Source of the DNA: Burkholderiales bacterium RIFCSPHIGHO2_12_FULL_61_11 | GTDB lineage: Bacteria > Pseudomonadota > Gammaproteobacteria > Burkholderiales > Burkholderiaceae_C | Direction of reading: 5' to 3' | Length of the DNA: 11,509 bases | Assembly: GCA_001770785.1 (NCBI GenBank) | Contig: MERZ01000408.1 | Location: 1-11,509, forward strand | In this document: positions 1 to 11,509 of the stretch, one piece after another | Layout of the letters: each line of letters begins with the position of its first letter | How positions within the stretch are numbered: the stretch's first letter is position 1 | The notes under the pieces: model-generated | Told to the model about the DNA's origin: nothing | Database searches by the model: none | Seen by the model: only the letters and a program-made list of their open reading frames with translations | Made by a program: the position numbers and the translations under genes

Positions 1-673
1 CTGCAGGAACGTGAAATTCTGCACGGCTGGCCTGCAACAGATGCCAGGAATCGTCAGCGGAAAAAGTCCCTGTCGGTGCTTGGGTGGTGGAAACAATCAA
101 GCCCTTTTTGTTGAATTCGAAAATCTGAATACCCTGCATTCTATTGTCATGCGACAGTTCTTTCACGTTGACCACATAGGTATTGTCGGCCTGCGTTTCT
201 TTCAGCCAGGCACCGGTCTGACCGATGGTGATCTTGCCCTGGTAGCGCGCCTTGAGCAATTGCGCGGCACGCTCACTGACGGGTGCCAGGTAGTCTCCCA
301 CGGCAAAACTGAACACCGCAAAAAATGCGCCTAGTGCCAGCAGCAGCTTGAGCGCCCGCCAGGGACCCAGGCCGCTGGTGCGCAAAATGGTGTATTCGGA
401 GCTCTGGGCCAGCCGGGCCATGACAAAAATGGTGCCGATCAGCACCGAGATGGGGAGCAACTCATACAGATGATTGGGTATCAGCAGCGTCACATACAAG
501 AGCGCGTGTTTGATCTGATAAATGTCGCCAGCGCGGCCAAGGCCATTGCTTTTGCCGAGGTGCTGCAATTCATCGACCAGGTCAAAAAAGAAAAACAGCG
601 CCAGGAAACCCAGGGCCACCAGCGCAATGGCGGCCAGCACTTCGCCATAAATCAGTCGGCGTATGGTTTTCAT
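1..673 (-). CDS. lptG: LptG, lipopolysaccharide export permease (partial, C-terminus beyond left edge)
   Basis: LptG pairs with LptF as the transmembrane half of the LptB2FG ABC transporter that extracts LPS from the inner membrane and feeds it to LptC. The reverse-strand frame is open from the ATG at 671-673 to the window edge, giving 224 codons. It begins MKTIRRLIYGEVLAAIALVA and runs into a hydrophobic segment with FFFFDLVDEL, typical of the first helix. A second membrane region includes LYELLPISVLIGTIFVMARL, followed by SSEYTILRTSGLG, the usual cytoplasmic coupling segment of this family, and then the start of the periplasmic beta-rich domain (GKITIGQTGAWLKE). The ATG overlaps the lptF stop codon as ATGA, so the two are probably translationally coupled. 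Full-length LptG is about 360 residues, so roughly the last third is missing only because the window ends. Recognition is by family sequence and gene order. Confidence 0.93.
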   Translation of the reverse strand, partial: MKTIRRLIYGEVLAAIALVALGFLALFFFFDLVDELQHLGKSNGLGRAGDIYQIKHALLYVTLLIPNHLYELLPISVLIGTIFVMARLAQSSEYTILRTSGLGPWRALKLLLALGAFFAVFSFAVGDYLAPVSERAAQLLKARYQGKITIGQTGAWLKETQADNTYVVNVKELSHDNRMQGIQIFEFNKKGLIVSTTQAPTGTFSADDSWHLLQASRAEFHVPA

Positions 674-1797
674 GGCTGGCGGCTTCCATTGACGCGCATG
701 GCAGGCGATGCGCGGCGTATGCGCGGAGGCAGCGTGAAAACCCAGTGGGTATGCCGCTTGGCCAGCCAGCCCAGGCCCAGCAGCAAGATGCCGCCATGCA
801 GGGCCACCAGGAAGTTGCCGAAACCGATGAGGCCCATCACGATCCAGCCTTGCCCCAGATTGAGCAGGTTGTTGTAAACCACAAATGCCAACAGAACAAA
901 AATCAGGTTGCCGCTGCGCCCGGCGCGTGGGTTCACGCTGGCCAGCGCCAAGGCCAGAACCACAAAGTTGATCGCTGACAGGGCCAGCCCAAAGCGCCAC
1001 GCCAGCTCACCGAGATTGACGCGGGTGGGGGTCCTGCTCAAGTCGCGAGTGGATAAAAGCCTGGCTTGCGGCACGCTTGCGCCGAGCGCGGTCGATTCGC
1101 CCGTTTTGGTGCCGTACTCTTTAAAATCACTGATTTTGAGGGCCGATTCCCCAATCACATTTTCCAGTCGCTGGCCGTTTTCGAGAATCAGGAACTGGGC
1201 CTCTCCCCTGGTTTCAATACGGCCTGATCGCGCCGTCGTGATGGAGCTTTTGCCTTTTTCGGTGGCGGCGATAAACACATTGTTGCTGGCCTGGTCGCCG
1301 GCCAGATTGCGGTCAATGAAAAATACCCGGTTGCCGCTGGACGACTCCTGAAACTGGCCTGGTGCAATGCGGTCCAGGTCGCCGCGCTGCTGGTAGCGGC
1401 TTTGCATGTCCCTGGTCTGCTGGTTGGTCCATGGCCAGACAAAAAGTGCCATCAGGGTAATCACCAGCAGAACCGGCCAGGCGAAGCGAAACAGGGGCAT
1501 CAGAAAGCCCGCCAGCCCTTGGCCGCTGGTGAACCAGACCACCATTTCACTGTCACGGTACATGCGTGACAGGGTGCTGACCATGGCAATGAAAAGCGAG
1601 AGCGTCAGGATGGTCGGCAGGCGGCCCAAAGCCGAGTAAGCCATGAAAAGCATGACGTCCTGCGGATTGAGGGAGCCGCGCGAGGCTTGCCCCAGCGTGC
1701 GGATCAGCACAATGGTCATCACAATGGTGACGAGCACCACCAGGGTTGCCCCGAAACTGTGAGCCAACTCTTTGCGAATCGAGGATTGGAATAACAT
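670..1797 (-). CDS. lptF: LptF, lipopolysaccharide export permease
   Basis: This is the partner permease of LptG in the LPS export transporter. The protein is 375 residues from the ATG at 1795-1797 (MLFQSSIRKELAHSFGATLV). Hydrophobic helices lie at about residues 14-34, 47-76 and 96-123, a hydrophilic periplasmic jellyroll domain spans about 125-260, and three more helices lie at about 265-287, 297-311 and 316-346, which is the six-helix LptF/LptG layout. The cytoplasmic segment RMYRDSEMVVWFTSGQG (79-95) is a family hallmark. The frame stays open upstream to 2022, but that would read antisense through pepA and adds a non-family N-terminus, so the start at 1797 is preferred. No strong Shine-Dalgarno precedes it. 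It is divergent from pepA, as in Escherichia coli. The stop overlaps the lptG start. Confidence 0.95.
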   Translation of the reverse strand: MLFQSSIRKELAHSFGATLVVLVTIVMTIVLIRTLGQASRGSLNPQDVMLFMAYSALGRLPTILTLSLFIAMVSTLSRMYRDSEMVVWFTSGQGLAGFLMPLFRFAWPVLLVITLMALFVWPWTNQQTRDMQSRYQQRGDLDRIAPGQFQESSSGNRVFFIDRNLAGDQASNNVFIAATEKGKSSITTARSGRIETRGEAQFLILENGQRLENVIGESALKISDFKEYGTKTGESTALGASVPQARLLSTRDLSRTPTRVNLGELAWRFGLALSAINFVVLALALASVNPRAGRSGNLIFVLLAFVVYNNLLNLGQGWIVMGLIGFGNFLVALHGGILLLGLGWLAKRHTHWVFTLPPRIRRASPAMRVNGSRQP

Positions 1798-1858
1798 TGA
1801 CCGAACTAGCCGCTTTCGTTTTACTTTATTTTTTATCTTATCTGCTGAACCCTGAATT
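1798..1858. promoter_or_regulatory. Divergent lptF / pepA promoter region
   Basis: This 61-bp AT-rich gap separates the two divergent starts and must hold, or overlap, promoters for both operons. On the + strand a TTGACC hexamer at 1797-1802 is followed, 17 bases on, by TTTACT at 1820-1825, a weak but properly spaced candidate for pepA; it would give a transcript leader of only about 25-30 bases. On the - strand TAAGAT (1840-1835) is a candidate -10 for lptF. Neither gene has a clear Shine-Dalgarno. The location is certain; the exact hexamers are inference. Confidence 0.4.
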
Positions 1859-3379
1859 ATGGACTTTGAACTGAAAACACTGACTCGTACCCGTGTATCT
1901 GGCGAAAAATGTGATGCCCTGCTTGTGCTCATACCCCAGGACTTGAGCTTGGAGGACGATCCCCTGTCGGCGCTGGCTGCGCTGGCCCTCAAATCGGGTG
2001 ACTTTGAAGCCAAACCGGGCAAGCTGCTCAGCGCCTACCGCACGCCAGGCATTGCGGCAACGCGGGTTTTTCTGGTGGGTGCAGGAGACGGCAGCCCAAA
2101 AAATGTTCGCACCGCTGTCAACGCCGGGTTGGCAGCATTGAAGAACGGCAATACCCAGCGCGCAGTGCTCTGCCTGAGCGCGCTGAACAAGCCGCAGGCC
2201 GATGCCGTGCGGGCAGCCGTGGTCGCCTGCGGCGATGCGCTCTACACCTACAGCACCACCAAATCCAAACCCGGCCCGACAAAACTGCAGCGTATCGTGC
2301 TTGCCGTGAACGATGCCGCAAGCGCCAAGGCGGGTTTCGACAAGGGGACAGCGCTGGTCAAGGGCATAGAGTTCGCCAAGGAATGGGCCAATCGGCCGGC
2401 CAACCACGCGACCCCGACTTTGCTGGCAGGCGCTGCCAAGGGGCTGGGGAAATTGCGCAACATCAAGGTTGAAGTGCTGGGCCCGAAGGAAGTTGCCGAT
2501 CTCGCAATGGGCGCGTTCATGGCAGTGGCCCAGGGCACGGCAGAGCCGTTGCGCTTTATTGTGCTGCGTTATGAGGGGGCAGCCAAGTCCGTGGCCCCGG
2601 TTGTGCTGGTTGGCAAGGGGATCACCTTCGATTCCGGCGGCATCTCGATCAAGCCTGCTGCCGAGATGGACGAGATGAAATTCGACATGTGCGGTGCCAC
2701 GAGTGTGCTCGGTACCTTTCGTGCGCTGGCCGAGCTGCAGCCTGCGCTGAACGTGGTCGGTCTGATTCCGGCGAGCGAAAACATGACAGGCGACAGTGCG
2801 GTCAAGCCCGGTGATGTGGTCACCAGCATGAGCGGGCAAACCATCGAAGTTCTGAACACCGATGCAGAAGGGCGACTGGTGCTGTGCGACGCATTGACCT
2901 ATGCGGAGCGCTTCAAGCCCAAGGCCGTGATCGATATCGCCACGCTGACCGGCGCTTGTGTGATCGCCCTGGGCGGGGTGCGCAGCGCACTTTTCTCGAC
3001 TGACGAGCCACTGGCCCAAGCGCTGACCCAGGCGGGTGAATCCTCTCTGGATCTGTGCTGGAGAATGCCGCTTGATGAGGAGTACGCAGAAGGGCTCAAA
3101 TCAAATTTTGCGGATGTCGCCAATATTGCAGGAAGAGCTGCAGGCGTGGTGACCGCTGCCAAGTTTTTACAGCGCTTTGCCACCCGGTTTCCCTGGGCGC
3201 ACCTGGACATCGCCGGCACGGCCTGGAAAGGTGGCACGGCGAAGGGCGCTACTGGTCGCCCCGTTCCCCTGCTGCTGGACTATTTGCTAAGCCAGGTTCC
3301 CGTGGCTGTGGCAGGAAAAGTGCCCGCAAGAGCCAAGCCCGTGAAGCGACGCGCGCCCGTCGCCAAAACCGGGGTATGA
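1859..3379 (+). CDS. pepA: Leucyl aminopeptidase PepA (cytosol aminopeptidase, M17)
   Basis: PepA is a hexameric, two-metal cytoplasmic peptidase that removes N-terminal residues such as leucine from peptides; in E. coli it also acts as a DNA-binding accessory factor. The 506-residue product carries the M17 signature NTDAEGRL at 333-340. Metal ligands expected from the E. coli enzyme are all present: K253 and D258 (VGKGITFDSGG), D276 (KFDMCGA), D335 and E337; the catalytic lysine is K265 (ISIKP) and the catalytic arginine R339. The non-catalytic N-domain is about residues 1-160 and the catalytic domain about 165-485. Relative to E. coli PepA the active-site residues come 17 positions earlier, while the C-terminus has about 20 extra residues forming a basic tail (487-503, rich in K, R, P and A). 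The ATG at 1859 lacks a good Shine-Dalgarno but fits the family N-terminus. The stop overlaps the holC start as ATGA. Confidence 0.97.
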   Translation: MDFELKTLTRTRVSGEKCDALLVLIPQDLSLEDDPLSALAALALKSGDFEAKPGKLLSAYRTPGIAATRVFLVGAGDGSPKNVRTAVNAGLAALKNGNTQRAVLCLSALNKPQADAVRAAVVACGDALYTYSTTKSKPGPTKLQRIVLAVNDAASAKAGFDKGTALVKGIEFAKEWANRPANHATPTLLAGAAKGLGKLRNIKVEVLGPKEVADLAMGAFMAVAQGTAEPLRFIVLRYEGAAKSVAPVVLVGKGITFDSGGISIKPAAEMDEMKFDMCGATSVLGTFRALAELQPALNVVGLIPASENMTGDSAVKPGDVVTSMSGQTIEVLNTDAEGRLVLCDALTYAERFKPKAVIDIATLTGACVIALGGVRSALFSTDEPLAQALTQAGESSLDLCWRMPLDEEYAEGLKSNFADVANIAGRAAGVVTAAKFLQRFATRFPWAHLDIAGTAWKGGTAKGATGRPVPLLLDYLLSQVPVAVAGKVPARAKPVKRRAPVAKTGV

Positions 3380-3813
3380 CCGAAATAGCCTTTCATTTCA
3401 ATGTGGCTGACAAGCTGCTGTACGGATGCCGATTGCTGCGCAAGGCCTATACCAGTGGTGCCAGCGTGGTGGTGACGGCAGAGCCCGAATTGCTGGCTGG
3501 ACTTGATCAGTTGCTGTGGAGCTTTTCCCCAACCGACTTTGTGCCCCATGGCCGACTCGGTGCAGGTGAACCCAGCCGTGGTGAGACGCCAGTGTTGCTT
3601 GCTGAGTCACTCGAATCGTGCTCAGGCTACAGTGTTCTGGTTAACCTGGGTCAGGCGGTTCCGCTCGAGTTCGAACGGTTTGAGCGTTTTATTGAGGTGG
3701 TGGCGCAGGGCGAGGAAGACCGCCTCGCTGCACGCATTCGCTGGAAGCATTACACCGACAGGGGTTACGCCATGAAACGACATGACCTTGCGACGGCCGG
3801 GGAGGGGACATGA
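3376..3813 (+). CDS. holC: DNA polymerase III chi subunit
   Basis: HolC (chi) is the clamp-loader accessory subunit that links the replicase to single-strand binding protein SSB through the SSB C-terminal tail, working with psi. The product is 145 residues, close to the E. coli length of 147. It shows the family's FHFNVADK start (6-13), the central LLWSFSPTDFVPHGRLG segment (46-62) and the C-terminal RWKHYTDRGYAMKRHD stretch (122-137). Its ATG (3376-3378) overlaps the pepA stop and its TGA (3811-3813) overlaps the next start, so expression is probably coupled on both sides. The pepA-holC order matches E. coli; there valS follows, but here it does not. Confidence 0.92.
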   Translation: MTEIAFHFNVADKLLYGCRLLRKAYTSGASVVVTAEPELLAGLDQLLWSFSPTDFVPHGRLGAGEPSRGETPVLLAESLESCSGYSVLVNLGQAVPLEFERFERFIEVVAQGEEDRLAARIRWKHYTDRGYAMKRHDLATAGEGT

Positions 3814-4139
3814 GCAATGCCTCGGGTCCGCCCCGTTTCGTGCCCACGCTGACGGAGGTCTTCCAGCCCGCGGTCATGCCCGCTCAAACACCGGTTTCAG
3901 ACAACGTTATTGGGCCGGTGGCGCTTGCTGCCGAGCTGGAAGAGCAAATGGTGCAACGCGTTTTGCAGCGGATAGACCTGACGCTGGAACGGCGTTTGCG
4001 GGAGGCTGTTGGGCAACTGATCCTGGAACAGACCCAAACCCTGGCGCCCCGTCTTCATGAAGAGATTGAGCGGGTCGTGCGCCAATCGGTGAATCAGGCC
4101 TTTGCACAGGAAGCGGCTCAAACGCCGCCCCGACCTTAG
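3810..4139 (+). CDS. Small conserved-looking helical protein of unknown function
   Basis: This 109-residue protein starts on an ATG that overlaps the holC stop (ATGA), which strongly suggests it is a real, coupled member of the pepA-holC operon. The N-terminal third (1-38) is proline-rich and probably disordered, with RFVPTLTEVF at 10-19 as its most distinctive segment. Residues 40-100 are rich in E, Q, R, L and V in a heptad-like pattern (AELEEQMVQRVLQRIDLTLERR onward), predicting one or two amphipathic helices or a coiled coil. No signal peptide or membrane segment is seen. I do not recognise a named family. Small proteins of this look follow holC in some Burkholderiales as far as I recall, but that is not checked. 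A role beside chi in replication is only a guess from position. Confidence 0.75.
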   Translation: MSNASGPPRFVPTLTEVFQPAVMPAQTPVSDNVIGPVALAAELEEQMVQRVLQRIDLTLERRLREAVGQLILEQTQTLAPRLHEEIERVVRQSVNQAFAQEAAQTPPRP

Positions 4140-4360
4140 GGAGGGTTTAGGGACGCTGGCAGGTTTTTACGCATTGGCCGCACCTTATCGGCAATCACTA
4201 CAACCGCATGCCCACAAACTTTCCCCGGGTAACCTCCTTATCAACAATAACCTAGGGACGTTGCTATGGTGCGGGCCAGAAATTTGCGTTATGTTCGAGC
4301 CCGTTGAGTAAAAAAACTATTCTCAACTTTTAATGGTAATTTTCTAATCGGAGTGTTTTT
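4140..4360 (+). promoter_or_regulatory. Intergenic region with leader of the binding-protein gene
   Basis: This 221-bp gap between the holC operon and the binding-protein gene should hold that gene's promoter. Visible elements are an imperfect hairpin at 4173-4195 (ATTG-CCG paired with CGG-CAAT, one bulged G) with no T-run, so not a convincing terminator, and an inverted repeat GTTGAG (4303-4308) / CTCAAC (4322-4327). TTGAGT at 4304-4309 is a possible -35 with TTTTAA at 4328-4333 as a poor -10 (18-bp spacer). A Shine-Dalgarno GGAG (4350-4353) sits 7 bases before the ATG at 4361. A short open frame at 4102-4311 crosses the region but has no protein-like character. Confidence 0.4.
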
Positions 4361-5491
4361 ATGCAAATGAAATTAAGAGTGACTGCCATGGCTACCCTCG
4401 CTATGGCAGCGGGTTTTGCTTCTGCACAAGATGCGGTGGTCAAAATTGGTCACGTCGCACCCATGTCCGGCTCACAGGCCCACTACGGCAAAGACAATGA
4501 AAATGGCGCGCGCATGGCCATTGAAGACCTGAACGCACAAAACCTTGTCATTGGTGGCAAGAAAGTCAAGTTTGAGCTGGTGGCTGAAGACGATGCCGCT
4601 GATCCGAAACAAGGCACGGCTGTTGCACAAAAACTGTGCGACCTGAAAGTTGCTGGCGTGGTCGGTCACCTGAACTCGGGCACGACGATTCCCGCTTCCA
4701 AGGTTTACCACGACTGCGGCATTCCCATGGTGACAGGTGCTGCCACCAACCCCGGTCTGACCAAGCCTGGCTACAAGAATGTTTTCCGCATCATTGCCAA
4801 TGACAACGCGCTGGGCGCCGGCCTGGCTTTTTATGCGGCTGATTCACTGAAACTGAAAAAAGTCGCCGTGATCGATGACCGTACCGCTTACGGCCAAGGT
4901 GTTGCTGAAGTGTTCAAAAAGACCGCTCTGACAAAAGGCATGACCGTGGTGGACGAGCAATTCACCACCGACAAAGCCACCGACTTCATGGCCATCCTCA
5001 CGGCTGTCAAATCCAAGCAGCCTGACGTGGTTTTCTTCGGCGGCATGGATGCACAAGGCGCGCCCATGCTGCGCCAGATGGAACAACTTGGCATGAGCAA
5101 CGTCAAGTATTTCGGCGGCGACGGCATCTGCACATCCGAGATTGCCAAGCTGGCAGCGGGCGCCAAGACCCTTGGCAATATGGTCTGTGCCGAAGGCGGT
5201 GCATCGCTGGCCAAAATGCCCGGCGGCCAAGCCTGGAAAAAGCGTTACGACGCCAAGTATCCCGGTCAGTTCCAGGTTTACAGCCCGTACACCTATGACG
5301 CGACCTTCCTGCTGGTTGATGCCATGAAGCGGGCCAATTCGACCGATCCAAAGGTCTACACCCCCGAGTTGGCAAAGTCCAACTTTAAAGGTGTCACCAC
5401 CACCATCGCGTTCGAGACCAATGGTGAATTGAAAAACCCGGCCATCACCTTGTATGTCTACAAAGACGGCAAGAAAACGGCCCTGAACTAA
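4361..5491 (+). CDS. Periplasmic substrate-binding protein, branched-chain amino acid (LivJ/LivK) type
   Basis: This 376-residue protein is a type I periplasmic binding protein of the high-affinity branched-chain amino acid ABC transporter family; it would capture a small ligand in the periplasm and deliver it to an inner-membrane permease. A Sec signal peptide is clear: basic start, hydrophobic 5-19, cleavage site ASA (20-22) before Q23. The mature domain begins VVKIGHVAPMSGSQAHYGKD. GHLNSGTTIPAS (102-113), TGAATNP (125-131) and TAYGQG (175-180) are the usual binding-cleft segments. Aligned by eye to E. coli LivJ, its ligand-contacting glutamate falls on Q232 (GGMDAQGAPMLRQ), so the ligand may not be Leu/Ile/Val. 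Four cysteines (93, 119, 257, 276) could form two disulfides. No permease or ATPase genes adjoin, so it is an orphan here. A GGAG Shine-Dalgarno sits 7 bases upstream; a strong terminator follows. Confidence 0.9.
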   Translation: MQMKLRVTAMATLAMAAGFASAQDAVVKIGHVAPMSGSQAHYGKDNENGARMAIEDLNAQNLVIGGKKVKFELVAEDDAADPKQGTAVAQKLCDLKVAGVVGHLNSGTTIPASKVYHDCGIPMVTGAATNPGLTKPGYKNVFRIIANDNALGAGLAFYAADSLKLKKVAVIDDRTAYGQGVAEVFKKTALTKGMTVVDEQFTTDKATDFMAILTAVKSKQPDVVFFGGMDAQGAPMLRQMEQLGMSNVKYFGGDGICTSEIAKLAAGAKTLGNMVCAEGGASLAKMPGGQAWKKRYDAKYPGQFQVYSPYTYDATFLLVDAMKRANSTDPKVYTPELAKSNFKGVTTTIAFETNGELKNPAITLYVYKDGKKTALN

Positions 5492-5507
5492 GTCGTTCAA
5501 GGCAAAC

Positions 5508-5535
5508 AAAAAACCACCGAAAGGTGGTTTTTTTT
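5508..5535 (+). terminator. Rho-independent terminator of the binding-protein gene
   Basis: ACCACC (5513-5518), a GAAA tetraloop (5519-5522) and GGTGGT (5523-5528) form a perfect stem followed by an eight-T run (5528-5535). An A-run (5508-5513) precedes the stem and can pair with the Ts, so it could also work in the opposite direction. It lies 17 bases after the stop codon and isolates this gene from the downstream cluster. Confidence 0.93.
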
Positions 5536-5571
5536 CGGCCCGCAGGGGTGTTGACGCATAAACTCATCCTA

Positions 5572-5734
5572 ATGCCCAATCCCAATCTCTCTTCTTTCAT
5601 CGGGTCCGTTGCCGACCTTCTTCGTGGCGACTTCAAACAATCCGAATACGGCAAGGTCACCCTACACCTCGCCGCTCGACCTCAAAAAGCTGATGGGAGA
5701 TCAAGACCACATTGGCGAAAACCTGCGCGCCTTG
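5572..5734 (+). pseudogene. Remnant of type I restriction-modification methylase gene hsdM
   Basis: Two adjoining fragments in different frames match what I know of the N-terminus of HsdM, the adenine methyltransferase subunit of type I restriction systems. From 5572 the frame reads [20 protein letters not shown] and continues [10 protein letters not shown] up to about 5661, like the intact [28 protein letters not shown] start. From about 5663, in another frame, it reads YTSPLDLKKLMGDQDHIGEN then LRA, like a segment that intact proteins carry tens of residues further on (YNTSPLDLKKLMGDQD). The two are joined with an internal deletion and a frame change right after GKV. Beyond LRA the similarity stops, and no catalytic methylase motif (NPPF) is present. 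It cannot encode a working enzyme and marks a lost restriction-modification locus. Recognition is from memory of the family and needs a translated search. Confidence 0.75.
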
Positions 5735-5892
5735 ACGGCCACCACCAACCCGTCCGGCAATAAAATGCTGCACCGACATGCGATGCCGACAAACCCTCCG
5801 CCGGTGTCGATGACAATGGCGAAAAATGGGCTCTTTGGCCAAATTTTGATATTTCAACAACGCCGCTTCGCGGCCATCTACTTTTTCCAGCC
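5735..5892. other. Unassigned spacer upstream of the MarR gene with small palindromes
   Basis: No gene is supported here. It contains the perfect 10-bp palindrome TTTGGCCAAA (5834-5843), an AT-rich stretch after it (5841-5855), and a hairpin GCCGC-TTC-GCGGC (5862-5874) ending 18 bases before the MarR start. The promoter of the regulator must lie here or further upstream, but no convincing -35/-10 pair was found. Open frames on both strands, including a - strand one of about 50 residues at roughly 5703-5850, are unrecognised and may be further decay debris. Confidence 0.4.
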
Positions 5893-6369
5893 ATGACCCA
5901 AGCTGCCGACACCCCGCCTTCCTTCAAGATTTATGACGAGCCGGGCCACCTGATTCGCCGCGCCCAGCAGATTGCGGTGTCCAAGTTTCACGAAGTTCAT
6001 GGCCGTCATGTCACGCCGATCCAGTACGCTATTTTGCGCACCCTGCATGAAACGCCAGGCGTTGACCAGGTGACTCTGGCCCAGCTGATTGCGCTGGACA
6101 CCTCAAGCACGGCCGATATCGCGACCCGCCTGGAGGCCAAGGGCTGGATCCTGCGCGAGATGCTGCCGCGGCGCCAGCGCCGCCTCTCGCTGACGCCGGA
6201 GGGCGAGGCGGTGCTGCGGGAACTTCGCCCGGGCGCGGAGGTCATGTACCTGGGCTTGATGGACAGCCTGGATGTAACGGAGCAGCGCGAGTTCATGCGC
6301 CTGCTGCGCAAGTTTGTGCATTTGAACGACCAGCAGAACAAGCCGGACGAAGTCAAAACAAAGGGTTAA
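5893..6369 (+). CDS. MarR-family transcriptional regulator, probable repressor of the van genes
   Basis: This 158-residue protein has the MarR dimer architecture: N-terminal helix (about 16-36), a winged helix-turn-helix at about 42-105, and C-terminal dimerisation helices (about 106-146). TPIQYAILRTLHETPGVDQV (41-60) leads into TLAQLIALDTSSTADIATRLEAKGW (61-85), the HTH with recognition helix near 70-82, and RRQRRLSLTPEG (93-104) is the wing, with the usual cluster of arginines. It sits 140 bp before vanA in the same direction, with two palindrome-like sites in between, so control of vanAB by vanillate or a related phenolic acid is likely. Known precedents are MarR regulators of lignin-phenol catabolism such as DesR of Sphingobium; VanR in Acinetobacter and Caulobacter is a GntR protein, so this is not that VanR. 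The ATG at 5893 has no visible Shine-Dalgarno. Domain is sure; target is inferred. Confidence 0.9.
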   Translation: MTQAADTPPSFKIYDEPGHLIRRAQQIAVSKFHEVHGRHVTPIQYAILRTLHETPGVDQVTLAQLIALDTSSTADIATRLEAKGWILREMLPRRQRRLSLTPEGEAVLRELRPGAEVMYLGLMDSLDVTEQREFMRLLRKFVHLNDQQNKPDEVKTKG

Positions 6370-6403
6370 TACTTAGATTTTCGGGCTTTCGCTACGGACA
6401 GTA

Positions 6404-6438
6404 ATTCAGTACAATGAATTTCATTCAGTATGCTGAAT
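6404..6438. promoter_or_regulatory. Tandem 16-bp operator-like sites upstream of vanA
   Basis: Two related dyads lie 19 bp apart, start to start: ATTCAGTACAATGAAT (6404-6419) and ATTCAGTATGCTGAAT (6423-6438). Both start ATTCAGTA and end TGAAT; the second has six-base perfect arms ATTCAG/CTGAAT. Between and overlapping them AATGAA-T-TTCATT (6413-6425) is another perfect dyad. Size and symmetry suit a MarR dimer, and the spacing is close to two helical turns, which would put both dimers on one face. The regulator gene lies immediately upstream. Binding is inference. Confidence 0.6.
6410..6415 (+). promoter_or_regulatory. Candidate -10 element of the vanAB promoter
   Basis: TACAAT matches the sigma-70 -10 consensus at 5 of 6 positions and lies inside the first operator-like dyad. 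The region 16-18 bases upstream (CTTTCGCT, 6386-6393) is a poor -35. A start near 6422 would give a leader of about 88 bases. A bound repressor at the dyad would block polymerase directly. Confidence 0.4.
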
Positions 6439-6494
6439 CATTGAATTGAAGCCCATCACCCACCTGCAGGGTCTGTTGCAGGACTTATTAACTG

Positions 6495-6502
6495 AAGGAG
6501 GT
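6495..6502 (+). promoter_or_regulatory. Strong ribosome binding site of vanA
   Basis: AAGGAGGT is a near-perfect complement to the 16S rRNA 3' end and lies 7 bases before the ATG at 6510. It is the strongest Shine-Dalgarno in the window, implying high VanA synthesis when the promoter is open. Just upstream, CCTGCA (6463-6468) and TGCAGG (6477-6482) can form a 6-bp hairpin with an 8-base loop. Confidence 0.8.
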
Positions 6503-6509
6503 CATCATC

Positions 6510-7562
6510 ATGTTCCCGAAAAACACTTGGTACGTCGCCTGCACCCCCAATGAGATCGACGAAAAACCGCTGGGCCGCAAGATCTGCGGCGAGAGCATTG
6601 TCTTCTACCGTGGTCAGGAAAATCGTGTCGCCGCCGTCGAGGATTTCTGCCCGCACCGTGGTGCGCCTTTGTCACTGGGTTTCGTATCCGAAGGCAAGCT
6701 GGTCTGCGGCTACCACGGCCTGGAGATGGGTTGCGACGGCAAGACCATCGCCATGCCGGGCCAGCGCGTGCGCGGCTTTCCGGCGATCCGCAGCTACCCC
6801 GTGGTCGAGCGCTATGGCTTCATCTGGGTCTGGCCCGGCGATGCGGCAAAAGCCGATGCCGACAAAATTCCGCACCTCGACTGGTACGACAACCCCGAGT
6901 GGGCCTATGGCGGTGGTTTGTTCCACATCAACTGCGACTACCGCCTGATGATCGACAATCTGATGGATTTGACGCACGAGACCTACGTGCATTCCGGCAG
7001 CATTGGGCAAAAGGAAATTGACGAATCCCCGTGCAAAACCACGATCGAAGGCGAGCAGGTCGTCACCAGCCGTTTCATGAACGACATCATGCCGCCGCCA
7101 TTCTGGAAACTGGCGCTGCGCGGCAACAATCTGGCCGATGACGTGTCCGTGGACCGCTGGCAGATCTGCCGCTTCACGCCGCCGAGCAACGTGATGATCG
7201 AAGTCGGCGTCGCCCACGCCGGCAAGGGCGGCTACGACGCGGCGCCAGAGCACAAGGCTTACGCCGTGGTGGTGGACTTCATCACGCCCGAGACCGAAAC
7301 CTCGATCCACTATTTCTGGGGCATGGCGCGCAAGTTCAACCCCAAGGACAAGGCGCTCACCGCCATCATCCGCGAAGGCCAGGGCAAGATATTCAGCGAA
7401 GACTTGCAGATGCTGGAACTGCAGCAAAAGAACCTGCTGGCGTACCCCGAGCGCGCCCTGCTCATGCTCAACATCGATGCCGGCGGCGTGCAGTCGCGCA
7501 AGATTCTGGACCGTCTGATGGCGCAGGAGCAACCAGGTGCCAGCCCCGCAGCCAGCGCCTGA
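6510..7562 (+). CDS. vanA: Vanillate O-demethylase oxygenase subunit (Rieske non-heme iron)
   Basis: VanA is the terminal oxygenase that hydroxylates the methoxy carbon of vanillate, yielding protocatechuate and formaldehyde, with electrons supplied by VanB. The 350-residue protein begins MFPKNTWYVACTPNEIDEKP, nearly the classical Pseudomonas VanA start. The Rieske [2Fe-2S] cluster ligands are C47 and H49 (CPHRGAPLSLG) and C66 and H69 (CGYHGLEM). The mononuclear iron site is NLMDLTHETYVH (150-161), with H156 and H161 as ligands, the bridging aspartate D153, and D298 (FSEDLQ) as the probable third ligand. The whole sequence, including MPGQRVRGFP and NIDAGGVQSR, follows VanA closely, so vanillate rather than isovanillate or dicamba is the most likely substrate, though specificity is inferred. 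A strong AAGGAGGT sits upstream; vanB follows after 9 bases. Confidence 0.95.
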   Translation: MFPKNTWYVACTPNEIDEKPLGRKICGESIVFYRGQENRVAAVEDFCPHRGAPLSLGFVSEGKLVCGYHGLEMGCDGKTIAMPGQRVRGFPAIRSYPVVERYGFIWVWPGDAAKADADKIPHLDWYDNPEWAYGGGLFHINCDYRLMIDNLMDLTHETYVHSGSIGQKEIDESPCKTTIEGEQVVTSRFMNDIMPPPFWKLALRGNNLADDVSVDRWQICRFTPPSNVMIEVGVAHAGKGGYDAAPEHKAYAVVVDFITPETETSIHYFWGMARKFNPKDKALTAIIREGQGKIFSEDLQMLELQQKNLLAYPERALLMLNIDAGGVQSRKILDRLMAQEQPGASPAASA

Positions 7563-7571
7563 GGACTGACC

Positions 7572-8540
7572 ATGAGCCCCTTATCGACCCTATCGGTCCG
7601 CGTGGCGCGCAAGGCGACGGAGGCCGCCGATATCTGCACCTTCGAGCTGGTGGATGTGGACGGCGGGCCGCTGCCGGCCTTCTCCGCTGGCTCGCATGTG
7701 GACGTGGCCCTGCCCAATGGTCTCACGCGCCAGTACTCGCTGTGCAATGACCCGAAGGAAACCCACCGCTACCTGATCGGCGTGCTGCGCGACCCGGCCT
7801 CGCGCGGCGGCTCGCAAGCGATGCACGAGCAGGTTCAGGAAGGGCAGCTGCTGCAAATCAGCGCTCCGAAGAACCACTTCCCGCTGGCGCACGATGTCCA
7901 GCGTCACCTGCTGCTGGCCGGCGGCATTGGTGTGACACCTATCCTCTGCATGGCAGAAAGGCTGGCTAATGTCGGCGTCGACTTCGAAATGCACTACTGC
8001 ACCCGCTCACCCGAGCGCACTGCTTTCCATCAACGCATTATTGGTTCCAGATTCTCTTCCCAAGTGCAGTTTCACTTCGACGACGGCATTGCCGAACAGA
8101 AACTGGACATCGCCGCGCTGCTGATCCCGCCGGCCAGCGGAGTGCACCTGTATGTCTGCGGGCCGAAAGGCTTCATGGACGCCGTGCTGAACACCGCGCG
8201 TGCGAAAGGCTGGCCCGAGCACCAGCTGCACTATGAGTTCTTCGCCGCCGAAGTGGTGCCGTCAGCGAGTGACGCGAGTTTCGAGGTCAAGCTGGCCAGC
8301 TCGGGCCGGATCATCACGGTGCCGAAGGACCAGACCGTGGTGCAGGCACTTGCCGCCGCTGGCGTCGAGGTGCAGACCGCCTGCGAGCAGGGGGTCTGCG
8401 GCACCTGTCTGACGCGCGTGCTGGAAGGCGTGCCGGACCATAAGGACATGTACCTGACGCCGGAGGAACAGGCCGCCAACGACCAGTTCACGCCCTGTTG
8501 TTCCCGTTCCAAAACGCCGATGCTGGTGCTGGATCTCTGA
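7572..8540 (+). CDS. vanB: Vanillate O-demethylase reductase subunit
   Basis: VanB is the NAD(P)H-dependent flavin/iron-sulfur reductase that passes electrons to the VanA Rieske cluster. The 322-residue protein has the class IA phthalate-dioxygenase-reductase order: flavin-binding barrel (about 5-105) with RQYSLCND (53-60), a nucleotide-binding domain (about 110-225) with LLAGGIGVTPI (114-124) and CGPKGFMDAV (196-205), and a C-terminal plant-type [2Fe-2S] ferredoxin domain (about 236-322). Cluster ligands are C271, C276 and C279 (ACEQGVCGTCL) and C309 (TPCCSRS). The start lies 9 bases after the vanA stop; GAGG overlapping that stop is the likely ribosome site, so the two genes are probably cotranscribed and coupled. 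Confidence 0.94.
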   Translation: MSPLSTLSVRVARKATEAADICTFELVDVDGGPLPAFSAGSHVDVALPNGLTRQYSLCNDPKETHRYLIGVLRDPASRGGSQAMHEQVQEGQLLQISAPKNHFPLAHDVQRHLLLAGGIGVTPILCMAERLANVGVDFEMHYCTRSPERTAFHQRIIGSRFSSQVQFHFDDGIAEQKLDIAALLIPPASGVHLYVCGPKGFMDAVLNTARAKGWPEHQLHYEFFAAEVVPSASDASFEVKLASSGRIITVPKDQTVVQALAAAGVEVQTACEQGVCGTCLTRVLEGVPDHKDMYLTPEEQAANDQFTPCCSRSKTPMLVLDL

Positions 8541-8626
8541 GTTGTCAAGTAAAAGAAGTTTAATTTTTTCTCAACGGATACGACAAGTTTTTAGTGCTGT
8601 TTTAAGTAATTACATAGGAGATAGAC

Positions 8627-9823
8627 ATGGCTACAAATCGAGGTGTTGTTTACGTCGAACAAGGCAAAGTGGAAGTCCGCGCCATCGACTTCCCAAAACT
8701 GCTCAATCCCAAAGGGCGAACGGCCAACCACGGCGTGATCCTCAAGGTGCTAACCACCAACATCTGCGGCTCCGATCAGCACATGGTTCGCGGGCGCACC
8801 ACTGCGCCGGCCGGTTTGGTTCTCGGCCATGAGATCACAGGCGAAGTCATTGAGGCGGGCAAGGACGTCGAGACGGTGGAAGTGGGCGACATCGTCTCGG
8901 TGCCGTTTAACGTTGCGTGTGGGCGTTGCCGTCAGTGCAAGGAGCGTCAAACCGGCGTGTGCCTGACCGTCAATCCGGCACGTCCGGGCGGTGCCTACGG
9001 CTATGTTGACATGGGCGGCTGGGTCGGCGGCCAGGCCGAGTACGTCATGGTTCCCTATGCCGACTTCAACCTGCTCAAATTCCCTGATCGCGCCCAAGCC
9101 ATCGAGAAGATTCGCGACCTGACCTGTCTGTCGGACATTCTGCCCACCGGCTACCACGGCGCCGTGACCGCAGGCGTTGGTCCGGGCAGCACGGTGTATG
9201 TGGCCGGTGCCGGTCCGGTGGGATTGGCGGCGGCAGCATCCGCGCGCCTGTTGGGTGCAGCGGTGATCATTGTTGGTGATGTCAACCCCGCACGCCTCAA
9301 GCATGCGAAGAGCGTGGGTTTCGAGACAGCAGATTTATCCACCGACGTGCCCTTGGCCGACCAGATCGCGCAAATACTGGGCGTTCCAGAAGTGGACAGT
9401 GCCATCGATGCGGTGGGATTCGAAGCCCGTGGTCACGGGCACGAAGGTGCGCAGCATGAGGCACCGGCTACAGTGCTCAACTCATTGATGGAGATTACCC
9501 GTGCGGCGGGCAAGATCGGCATTCCCGGTCTCTATGTCACAGAGGATCCGGGTGGCGTGGACAAGGCGGCGAAGACCGGCTCACTGAGCATCCGGCTAGG
9601 GCTGGGTTGGGCCAAGTCCCATAGTTTCATGACCGGCCAAACACCAGTGATGCAATACAACCGCGCGCTGATGCAAGCCATTTTGTGGGACCGCATCAAG
9701 ATTGCCGACATCGTAGGCGTAAAGGTCATCTCGCTGGATGAAGCACCTGCTGGTTACGCGCAGTTTGATGCGGGCGCTCCCACAAAATTCGTCATCGACC
9801 CGCACAATCAACTGCTCAAGTAG
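8627..9823 (+). CDS. fdhA: Glutathione-independent formaldehyde dehydrogenase
   Basis: This zinc-dependent medium-chain dehydrogenase oxidises free formaldehyde to formate using NAD without glutathione, as in Pseudomonas putida. At 398 residues it has that enzyme's length. Catalytic zinc ligands are C47 (NICGSDQH), H68 (LGHEITGE) and D170 (CLSDILPTGYHGA); the structural zinc is held by C98, C101, C104 and C112 (CGRCRQCKERQTGVC). YVAGAGPVGLAAAA (191-204) is the nucleotide-binding Rossmann glycine motif. The Asp rather than Cys zinc ligand and the long insert with GGWVGGQAEYVMVPYAD distinguish it from glutathione-dependent AdhC/FrmA. AGGAG (8616-8620) sits 6 bases before the ATG. It lies 86 bp after vanB, an AT-rich gap that might hold its own promoter. 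Its role here is to remove formaldehyde released by VanAB. Confidence 0.94.
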   Translation: MATNRGVVYVEQGKVEVRAIDFPKLLNPKGRTANHGVILKVLTTNICGSDQHMVRGRTTAPAGLVLGHEITGEVIEAGKDVETVEVGDIVSVPFNVACGRCRQCKERQTGVCLTVNPARPGGAYGYVDMGGWVGGQAEYVMVPYADFNLLKFPDRAQAIEKIRDLTCLSDILPTGYHGAVTAGVGPGSTVYVAGAGPVGLAAAASARLLGAAVIIVGDVNPARLKHAKSVGFETADLSTDVPLADQIAQILGVPEVDSAIDAVGFEARGHGHEGAQHEAPATVLNSLMEITRAAGKIGIPGLYVTEDPGGVDKAAKTGSLSIRLGLGWAKSHSFMTGQTPVMQYNRALMQAILWDRIKIADIVGVKVISLDEAPAGYAQFDAGAPTKFVIDPHNQLLK

Positions 9824-9938
9824 TGGCGGACCATCACAACGTTCAGAAATCATGATGGACTTGTAGCTGTTGCCTTAGCTGAGGCAGCTTGACGCAGCAA
9901 CGGGTCCATCGATTTCAGCGACTACTCAGCAGGTGTCC
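9824..9938 (+). other. Intergenic region between fdhA and the metF-like gene
   Basis: About 115 bases without a gene. An imperfect hairpin GCTG-tt-GCCT / AGGC-AGC lies at 9866-9888 but is not followed by a T-run, so it is at best a weak terminator or a processing site. AGG (9930-9932) before the ATG at 9939 is a modest ribosome site. No good promoter was seen, so readthrough from fdhA is possible. Confidence 0.35.
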
Positions 9939-11354
9939 ATGCTTTCACTTCGTCTCTGGTCAGTCCGTCATGCCCGTGGCTTGCGCCGGGCGTATGACTA
10001 TTTCTCGCGACTGGCTCCCTTGGCCGCGCCAGTTGCCCGAGCCATTGGCGCGTCAGGTACCGAGGCTTTGTTGCGTCCGTTGGAACGCGGCGCCAAGGGG
10101 TTGCTGTTTGATTGCAGAATGTGCGGCCAATGCGTGCTCTCCGCCACCGGCATGGCCTGCCCCATGAACTGCGCCAAGGAAATGCGCAATGGCCCGTGCG
10201 GCGGTGTGCGCGCCAACGGCCATTGCGAGGTGAAGCCCGAGATGCGCTGCGTCTGGGTGGAGGCCATCGAAGGCACCAAACGCATCGCGCCCGACCACTT
10301 GGACCACCCGACCACGCTGCTGCCCGCAATTGACCAGCGCAAACGCGGCAGTTCCAGCTGGATCCATGTGATTCACGGTAGTCCAGACCCGGCCTTGCAG
10401 CCCCCGGTAGGCGAGCGGATTACCCCCGAAGCACAACAGGGTCCGCTCGAGCGCGCCTGCCGCTCAGGCCGTTTTGTCATCACGGTTGAAGTGGCGCCGC
10501 CTGACTCGGCCGATCCCCAAACCCTGCTGGCGAAGGCGGCCCCGTTCAAAGGCTTGGTGGATGCCATCAACATCACGGACGGCGCTGGCGGCAACTGCCA
10601 CATGTCCAGCGTCGCCGCCTCGGCGATCCTCGCAGCCCACGGCTTTACCCCGGTCTACCAGGTGGCCTGCCGTGACCGCAACCGCATTGCCATCCAGGGC
10701 GACATTCTCGGCGCTAGCGCATTAGGGGTACAAAACATTTTGTGCCTGACAGGCGACGACGTCAGCCAGGGCGACCATCCGCAGGCCAAGCCGGTATTTG
10801 ATCTGGATGCGGTCTCGCTCTTGCACATTGCCCGGGGCATGTGCGACCGCGGCGAATACGCCTCCGGTCGCAAGCTGCAAACACCGCCTGACCTGTTCAT
10901 CGGCGCCACGGCAAACCCCTTTGTGCCGCCCTTTGGCGACCGCATCGCCAACCTGGAGAAAAAAGTCGCCGCCGGTGCCCGTTTCATCCAGACCCAGTTC
11001 TGTTTCGATCTGGCGATGCTGGACGACTTCATGCGCCGGGTCCGCGAGCGCCAACTGCACGAGCGCGCGCACATCATCGTCGGCGTTGGCACCCTGAGCA
11101 GCGCCAAGGCACTGAGCTGGATGGCCAATCATGTGCCAGGCGTCCATGTACCGCCAGCGCTGCTGGCACGCATCGCAGCCGCGGCTGACCAGAAAGCCGA
11201 AGCCAAGCAGATATGCATCGAGACCATCCAGGCGCTGGCCAGCATCGAGGGCGTCGCCGGCGTCCACGTGATGGGCCACAAGAACGAGGATGTCCTCGCC
11301 GAGATCATTGCCGAATGTGGTTTGCGCCGGCAAACCCGTCTGCATTCCGTATGA
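9939..11354 (+). CDS. MetV-MetF fusion: methylenetetrahydrofolate reductase with N-terminal cysteine-rich domain
   Basis: The C-terminal part (about 176-465) is a MetF-type TIM barrel, the flavoenzyme interconverting 5,10-methylene-THF and 5-methyl-THF: VITVEVAPP (180-188, E184 in the catalytic glutamate position), DAINITDGAGG (208-218), NILCLTGDD (266-274, flavin site) and IQTQFCFD (350-357). The first ~110 residues carry eight cysteines (C59, 62, 65, 74, 78, 87, 96, 104) in CRMCGQCVLSATGMACPMNC followed by NGPCGGV, the pattern of the MetV-type domain (Pfam MTHFR_C) that pairs with MetF in acetogens as a separate zinc-binding subunit. Here both are one 471-residue chain, against about 300 for ordinary MetF. 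The ATG at 9939 is chosen over an in-frame GTG at 9933 because AGG at 9930-9932 spaces correctly. A corrinoid gene follows after 28 bp, so it may run toward methyl-THF oxidation. Confidence 0.88.
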   Translation: MLSLRLWSVRHARGLRRAYDYFSRLAPLAAPVARAIGASGTEALLRPLERGAKGLLFDCRMCGQCVLSATGMACPMNCAKEMRNGPCGGVRANGHCEVKPEMRCVWVEAIEGTKRIAPDHLDHPTTLLPAIDQRKRGSSSWIHVIHGSPDPALQPPVGERITPEAQQGPLERACRSGRFVITVEVAPPDSADPQTLLAKAAPFKGLVDAINITDGAGGNCHMSSVAASAILAAHGFTPVYQVACRDRNRIAIQGDILGASALGVQNILCLTGDDVSQGDHPQAKPVFDLDAVSLLHIARGMCDRGEYASGRKLQTPPDLFIGATANPFVPPFGDRIANLEKKVAAGARFIQTQFCFDLAMLDDFMRRVRERQLHERAHIIVGVGTLSSAKALSWMANHVPGVHVPPALLARIAAAADQKAEAKQICIETIQALASIEGVAGVHVMGHKNEDVLAEIIAECGLRRQTRLHSV

Positions 11355-11382
11355 ATTTTTGACCCCCCAGGAGACTAGAACC

Positions 11383-11509
11383 ATGAATGACATGAACGAG
11401 CAGGAAAAACAGCTGGTCGAATGGCTGTCCGACATGAACGAAGATGATGCCTTGGCCCTGTCCAACAAGATGCTGTTCGAGGAAGGCGCCGACCCCCTGC
11501 GCGTGCTGG
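11383..11509 (+). CDS. Probable corrinoid (cobalamin-binding) methyltransferase protein, N-terminus only
   Basis: Only 42 codons are present before the right edge. The start ATG (11383) has AGGAG at 11369-11373, nine bases upstream. The peptide is acidic and helical (MNDMNEQEKQLVEWLSDMNE), then EEGADPLRVL (33-42), which resembles the GxDPxxxL segment of the methionine-synthase-type helical cap that precedes the B12-binding domain in MtaC/MtbC/MtvC-like corrinoid proteins. The decisive DxHxxG cobalt-ligand motif would lie outside the window. The preceding MetV-MetF gene, 28 bases away, supports the call. It could instead be another small helical protein. Confidence 0.55.
   Translation, partial: MNDMNEQEKQLVEWLSDMNEDDALALSNKMLFEEGADPLRVL

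Follow-up and report, generated by a model that had tools for sequence, protein, structure and literature searches.

A vanAB–fdhA row probably continued by a corrinoid methyltransferase module: a candidate two-way aryl-O-demethylation locus in a facultatively anaerobic betaproteobacterium

Our analysis of an 11,509-nucleotide stretch of the metagenome-assembled genome (MAG) of Burkholderiales bacterium RIFCSPHIGHO2_12_FULL_61_11 (contig MERZ01000408.1, positions 1 to 11,509, or G000:C408:1-11509; hereafter the window) supports, with a probability of roughly 0.72, a model whereby the locus is a gene row for two-way aryl-O-demethylation, by an oxygen-dependent or a corrinoid-dependent route, in a facultatively anaerobic betaproteobacterium. 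The window carries genes for an oxygenase and reductase of the vanillate O-demethylase type (vanA, vanB), a formaldehyde dehydrogenase (fdhA), a MetV-MetF fusion (metVF) and the beginning of a corrinoid protein; contig C408 ends at the right edge of the window, and the other parts of a corrinoid O-demethylase stand on contig C409 of the same genome. This model is based on the gene families, their order, their recurrence among relatives, the predicted fold of a 225-residue protein (p225) and the ring pathways of the host. The arrangement is real and recurrent, apparently new as a combination, and built from known families.

The vanAB–fdhA–metVF row and its probable continuation on a second contig

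VanA (6510-7562, plus strand) matches both the VanA_C (171 bits) and the Rieske (75 bits) profiles above their cut-offs, and VanB (7572-8540, plus strand) is a reductase with a C-terminal 2Fe-2S domain (Fer2 51 bits, cut-off 21), so that the combination defining the VanAB family, Rieske and VanA_C domains with an adjoining 2Fe-2S reductase, is present. In the PDB sequence comparison the best solved relative of VanA is the dicamba O-demethylase DdmC (E 1.7e-55), the best NCBIfam matches of VanB are reductases of other oxygenases, each below its cut-off, and the window VanA is the sole VanA_C match found across its own genome. To judge by its context, VanAB would act on vanillate or a similar methoxybenzoate. 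It is followed by FdhA (8627-9823, plus strand), a glutathione-independent formaldehyde dehydrogenase (TIGR02819 745 bits, cut-off 637), and by MetVF (9933-11354, plus strand), in which DUF5981, the C-terminal domain of MetV (residues 48-119, 85.5 bits), is fused to a methylene-tetrahydrofolate (methylene-THF) reductase domain (MTHFR, residues 173-462, 124.9 bits), both above cut-off. This same-strand order, which an earlier sequence-only reading of the DNA had described, is thus borne out by profiles. Like known vanillate O-demethylase loci, the row combines a VanA_C and Rieske oxygenase, an adjoining reductase and a neighbouring formaldehyde dehydrogenase; unlike the usual VanAB, it has a corrinoid system as its same-strand neighbour.

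Of the corrinoid protein, only the N-terminal 42 residues (11383-11508, plus strand) fit in before the window ends, and the remainder would lie on C409. This start alone gave no Pfam or NCBIfam match, and it is 85% identical to the N-terminus of a 220-residue corrinoid protein located 3' of metVF in Rhodoferax MAG_BA11 (locus L008); the probable corrinoid protein of the sequence-only reading therefore stands by virtue of this identity and not by any profile match of the short piece in the window. On C409 (locus L005), read in reverse for gene order, the C-terminal 138 residues of a corrinoid protein (L005:11197-11610, minus strand; B12-binding 80.8 bits, above cut-off) run in a frame that is open at the contig end. 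They are followed by a methyltransferase of 424 residues that belongs to the UroD superfamily, by p225, for which neither Pfam nor NCBIfam gave a match, by an activator of the RACo type that includes a 2Fe-2S domain (RACo_C_ter 245, Raco_middle 162 and Fer2 40 bits, all above cut-offs), by the pterin-binding methyltransferase MeTr (Pterin_bind 36.3 bits, above cut-off) and by an amidohydrolase (PF01979; L005:5276-6526, minus strand). The sequence-only reading had proposed that a UroD-like methyltransferase, a corrinoid activator and a second methyltransferase be sought past the right edge, and all three are found on C409. The outcome that it named as fatal, downstream DNA devoid of methyltransferase or activator or a corrinoid gene lacking a B12-binding domain, did not occur: the domain on C409 scores about 81 bits, and the genes follow the order of contiguous relatives.

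In Rhodoferax MAG_BA11, MetVF, corrinoid protein, methyltransferase, p225, RACo, MeTr and amidohydrolase form one unbroken run, with identities to the proteins described here of 89% (MetVF), 85% and 92% (the two parts of the corrinoid protein), 87% (methyltransferase), 74% (p225), 78% (RACo), 72% (MeTr) and 75% (amidohydrolase). In this MAG, the matches to the two portions of the corrinoid gene begin 246 bases apart. Of 30 relatives with matches to both portions, 20 show the same spacing, some of the other ten being matched from a later corrinoid residue, and this spacing would leave about 120 bases between the ends of C408 and C409. The B12-binding family has four places in the genome, one being the end of C409 and the other three lying in frames of 748, 954 and 1121 residues, which, by their length, we take to be probable mutases and MetH. 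C409 holds the only small corrinoid protein half found in the genome and the only copy found of the UroD-type methyltransferase. The complementary gene halves and the order in relatives together suggest that C408 and C409 are linked, and because the module is contiguous with MetVF in the Rhodoferax MAG, all four components of an O-demethylase of the anaerobic kind would adjoin vanAB.

According to an excerpt of PMC3727330, O-demethylases are defined by four parts: a substrate methyltransferase, a corrinoid protein, a THF methyltransferase and an activator. By family, all four are present here. The best PDB sequence match of the corrinoid protein of L008 is the corrinoid protein of a Desulfitobacterium O-demethylase (4jgi, E 3.5e-50), that of the activator is RACo (3zyy, E 2.6e-84), and the nearest PDB relatives of MeTr are methyl-THF:corrinoid methyltransferases (2yci, E 5e-12). 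The corrinoid O-demethylases of anaerobes, namely MtvABC of Moorella, the Odm and Vdm systems of Acetobacterium, the Desulfitobacterium systems and the archaeal Mto system, which is MtvB-like according to an excerpt of PMC8630106, have the same four parts by family. In contrast to these systems, the locus described here is found in a facultative betaproteobacterium, beside vanAB-fdhA and with metVF at its head; the row also includes p225, apparently an extra part, and a conserved amidohydrolase. The amidohydrolase recurs regularly with the other genes of the module.

The predicted fold of p225 is that of the MetH activation domain as a stand-alone protein, and its C-terminus ends in an invariant C-x2-C-x5-C motif (structure alignment of 68 rows chosen from loci and matches). 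By gene position, p225 probably reactivates the corrinoid methyl carrier. TM0269, a stand-alone reactivation protein for the Thermotoga methionine synthase, is 18% identical; p225 differs from it in its placement with a corrinoid methyl carrier and in its invariant cysteine motif. Protein searches returned 1121 homologs of the methyltransferase at E <= 1e-20 and 670 of p225 at E <= 1e-5, and the names among the 120 matches listed for each go no further than hypothetical protein or uroporphyrinogen decarboxylase.

Recurrence of the module and of its oxygenase neighbours

A scan of genome contigs for MetVF gave 577 confirmed stretches, of which the 80 best were kept. The 39 nearest loci among these (L008-L046; C409 is left out of all counts) are considered here, and the closest MetVF of those kept comes from a Rhodoferax MAG. 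Genes were called by codon score in GC-rich DNA, which makes their starts and gaps approximate. The corrinoid protein was found in 31 of these loci, the methyltransferase in 29, MeTr in 28, p225 and RACo in 27 each and the amidohydrolase, 63-75% identical across many betaproteobacterial loci, in 26. Missing parts often reflect short contigs; L031 and L036 carry MetVF without the module. The taxa represented include Rhodoferax, Ramlibacter, Rubrivivax, Sulfuritalea, Azoarcus, Aromatoleum anaerobium, Azospirillum, Desulfuromonadales, Geobacter and Terriglobia, and the gene set is present in the cultured Aromatoleum anaerobium and Azospirillum sp. TSO22-1. Thauera phenylacetica (L023) has metVF, MeTr, the amidohydrolase and a partial RACo at a contig end. 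Own genome included, the methyltransferase occurs in two of the 399 genomes sampled from the order (E <= 1e-60) and in seven of the 399 sampled from the family (E <= 1e-100), and it was found in none of the five other genomes listed for the genus; this patchiness marks the module as accessory. In loci L047-L087, mostly from Rhizobiales, MetVF is 45-50% identical and lies near a corrinoid protein of another kind, at about 40% identity, sometimes with a RACo-like gene; these systems probably serve another methyl donor.

Methyltransferase genes of this kind are not in themselves new to Proteobacteria: according to an excerpt of PMC10805028, genes for mtxB-type methyltransferases occur in 19 bacterial phyla, of which Proteobacteria is one of the chief ones. 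A reference title in PMC6486533 points to anaerobic degradation of methoxylated aromatics by nitrate-reducing Thauera. Among the matches listed, titles and the openings of abstracts name no O-demethylating enzymes of such Proteobacteria (subscription literature was outside the scope), and nothing in the literature listed describes a pairing of a corrinoid module with VanAB.

The module has a solid, recurring association with VanA-family oxygenases. A VanA-family gene is present in 12 of the 39 related loci, all of them within the 34 loci that have an upstream stretch of 3 kb or more, versus none of 41 more distant MetVF loci, mostly from Rhizobiales (Fisher p 6e-5, the rows not being independent). 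It stands directly 5' of metVF on the same strand in nine of the 12 (L009, L013, L015, L018, L020, L030, L033, L038 and L043), with gaps of only 12 to 21 bases in L013, L015, L020 and L030; vanA and fdhA have the opposite orientation in L021 and L022, and the oxygenase pair is downstream in L034. VanA_C scored above its cut-off in all six of the 12 loci that were scanned with Pfam. These oxygenases fall into several types: type V, 71-76% identical to the window VanA (L020, L021 and L022); type D (L009, L015, L034 and L038); type E1, 84-89% alike (L013, L018 and L030); and type E2, 93% alike (L033 and L043). L021 and L022 being 92% alike, independent cases number closer to eight than to twelve. 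In L009, L015 and L038, a GntR-type gene lies between the VanA-like and VanB-like genes.

One further pairing occurs at L124 (G727:C105, 1719-17452), where a 32% identical VanA-like gene on the other strand lies beside two tandem modules, whose methyltransferases are 63% and 62% like that of the window genome; the two modules possibly correspond to two methoxyaromatic substrates.

A two-way model of demethylation and its rivals

In our model, VanAB would, in the presence of oxygen, release formaldehyde by oxidising the methoxy group on vanillate or a methoxybenzoate like it, and FdhA would oxidise the formaldehyde further. Under oxygen-poor conditions, the UroD-type methyltransferase would instead pass the methyl group to the Co(I) form of the corrinoid protein, MeTr would shift it to THF, and MetVF and then FolD would oxidise the resulting methyl-THF, while RACo, and probably also p225, would return corrinoid that had slipped to Co(II) to service. 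Both routes would yield the same dihydroxybenzoate, for ring opening by LigAB with oxygen and for the benzoyl-CoA pathway without it. The sequence-only reading had suggested two demethylation routes in one locus, and the gene sets for both are indeed present; to judge by their context, the two would share a methoxyaromatic substrate, and we likewise infer in which direction MetVF works, that oxygen divides the labour between the routes and that they are regulated jointly.

The host, a betaproteobacterium of a soil or water type, is represented only by an assembled genome of 3.77 Mb in 416 contigs, with 93.8% completeness. By its gene content it is a facultative anaerobe able to open aromatic rings both aerobically and anaerobically, and two demethylation routes make sense in such an organism. 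Contig C187 encodes benzoyl-CoA reductase subunits A to D (BcrABCD) and 6-oxocyclohex-1-ene-1-carbonyl-CoA hydratase, each above its NCBIfam cut-off. For aerobic cleavage, ligA and ligB lie on C409, beyond the module and on the opposite strand, with a solute-binding protein next to them, and LigA scores 200 bits against an NCBIfam protocatechuate 4,5-dioxygenase cut-off of 161. The cbb3 oxidase subunit CcoN scores above its NCBIfam cut-off, and the COX1 family has seven matches in the genome, some of them mere pieces, among which a protein of 759 residues had no NCBIfam match at E <= 1e-50. An N-terminal piece of NarG is truncated at a contig edge and scores below its cut-off, so that nitrate respiration is merely suggested. 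A second four-gene set resembling benzoyl-CoA reductase (L101, G000:C196, 569-4912) scores below the NCBIfam subunit cut-offs and perhaps serves another aromatic CoA ester.

Several observations weigh against the two-way model or give it little support. No sequence spans the gap between C408 and C409. No VanA-family gene is seen in 27 of the 39 related loci, 22 of which have at least 3 kb upstream, and the module thus does not require such a gene. In a tree of 30 methyltransferases, with L024 on a very long branch, clustering by oxygenase type V is weak, its 2 changes being equalled or undercut in 113 of 500 shuffles, and type D, with 4 changes, is unclustered (equalled or undercut in 500 of 500). 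Types E1 and E2 taken as one group need 2 changes (44 of 500 shuffles as low), and all oxygenase types jointly need 4 (17 of 200 shuffles as low). Among PDB sequences, the methyltransferase is matched best by the chloromethane enzyme CdmB (130 bits), the set compared being without MtvB, OdmB and VdmB. A scan for promoters gave no site against 1.7 expected, and the same scan gave seven terminator-like sites against 6.0 expected. Finally, of the two folate genes that the sequence-only reading had named as worth seeking, folD is present in full length, on contig C15, and FTHFS (fhs) was not found in the 93.8% complete MAG; nor was an S-methyl_trans domain.

The match to CdmB lends itself to a different explanation, in which the corrinoid module demethylates another donor, such as chloromethane, dichloromethane, methanol or a methylated amine, and adjoins vanAB through the shared folate and formaldehyde one-carbon metabolism. 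An excerpt of PMC13222342 places haloalkane dehalogenases in the UroD superfamily and describes the chloromethane system CdmBCA of Acetobacterium dehalogenans, which also consists of a UroD-type methyltransferase, a corrinoid protein and a THF methyltransferase; with CdmB as the best match, the family therefore does not fix the methyl donor, and the many module loci without a VanA-family gene fit this explanation as well. However, the match says little, because MtvB, OdmB and VdmB, outside the comparison, are close relatives of CdmB according to the same excerpt. The genes neighbouring CdmBCA differ from those of the locus described here. CdmB is absent from the methyltransferase fold matches listed by Foldseek rank, an absence that is uninformative (structure alignment of 52 rows chosen from loci and matches). 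Moreover, genes of aromatic breakdown recur beside the module, in the form of the 12 VanA-family genes and of ligAB, the latter on C409 and in three of the 39 loci. We consider another donor unlikely, if the most serious of the rivals.

Much less probable is that both routes are real but complementary, each serving a methoxyaromatic of its own, or a methoxy group of its own on a single compound, rather than being oxic and anoxic alternatives. This would agree with the variety of oxygenase types (V, D, E1 and E2) that adjoin related methyltransferases and with the scatter of type D over the tree. On the other hand, a single supported clade of nine contains every one of the three methyltransferases that adjoin a type V oxygenase (3/9 versus 0/21, p 0.021), with few independent cases. 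A one-to-one match in substrate between oxygenase type and methyltransferase clade is only hinted at. The alternative offered in the sequence-only reading was that MetVF simply drains methylene-THF derived from VanAB formaldehyde towards methionine. Combined with a C409 unrelated to the window, it has in its favour that FdhA adjoins MetVF and that the contigs are unjoined, and is highly improbable given that the corrinoid gene begins 3' of metVF inside the window, that the 246-base spacing of relatives fits the contig ends, and that the module begins with MetVF also where vanAB is lacking, as in L008. We reject MetVF as a formaldehyde drain only in view of the corrinoid gene in the window together with the whole module on C409, for which a drain does not account.

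Returning to the two-way model, a MarR-family gene (5893-6369, plus strand; PF01047 40.8 bits, cut-off 24.6) located 140 bases 5' of vanA is a candidate substrate-responsive regulator, and GntR-type genes occur in 11 of the 39 loci in place of the MarR of the window. We tentatively speculate, at somewhat less than even odds, that the locus is an oxygen-indifferent operon in which a regulator that responds to substrate (MarR here and GntR in a number of relatives) induces both enzymes together, oxygen picks the route, RACo and the MetH-like protein allow the B12 enzyme to survive in cells exposed to oxygen, and the pairing arose repeatedly with different Rieske oxygenases.

If the two-way model is correct, the same food, lignin fragments stripped of their methyl groups, would be usable with or without oxygen, methoxyl turnover at oxic-anoxic boundaries would not be confined to acetogens and methanogens, and the upkeep of a corrinoid enzyme in an oxygen-respiring cell would become testable. 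The locus is a concrete candidate gene set for O-demethylation, and it draws attention to a large family of methyltransferases that has been assigned no function.

Related folate-linked loci and flanking genes

LigM and DesA of sphingomonads are THF-dependent O-demethylases of the GcvT fold that need no corrinoid and would likewise hand methyl-THF to a MetF-type reductase. A related MetVF (59% identical) is found in such a locus in Paraburkholderia sp. SG-MS1 (L036, 2024-11461), together with a DesA/LigM-like demethylase (552 bits for the DesA/LigM-like model, cut-off 800; 501 for the LigM model, cut-off 580), PurU (320 bits, cut-off 286), FolD and a LigB-family dioxygenase, and without a corrinoid system. 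The presence of MetVF beside a THF-dependent O-demethylase supports the handling of methyl-THF by the type of MetVF found in the window. In contrast to L036, neither the window nor C409 contains a LigM or DesA gene.

Between the amidohydrolase and ligB on C409 lies a FolD fragment (L005:4120-5246 region, minus strand), in which only about 40 residues remain before it meets the end of ligB, encoded on the opposite strand, the result of either a deletion or an assembly fault. In L022 (18146-21422), FolD and a flavin/4Fe-4S protein, read as HdrA-like, lie 3' of the module, and the latter is a possible electron partner of MetVF. Upstream of the row, positions 1-5491 of the window carry neighbours that we take, by eye and without a profile scan, to be lptF/lptG-, pepA- and holC-like, and at 4361-5491 a profile scan identified a binding protein of the branched-chain amino acid type.

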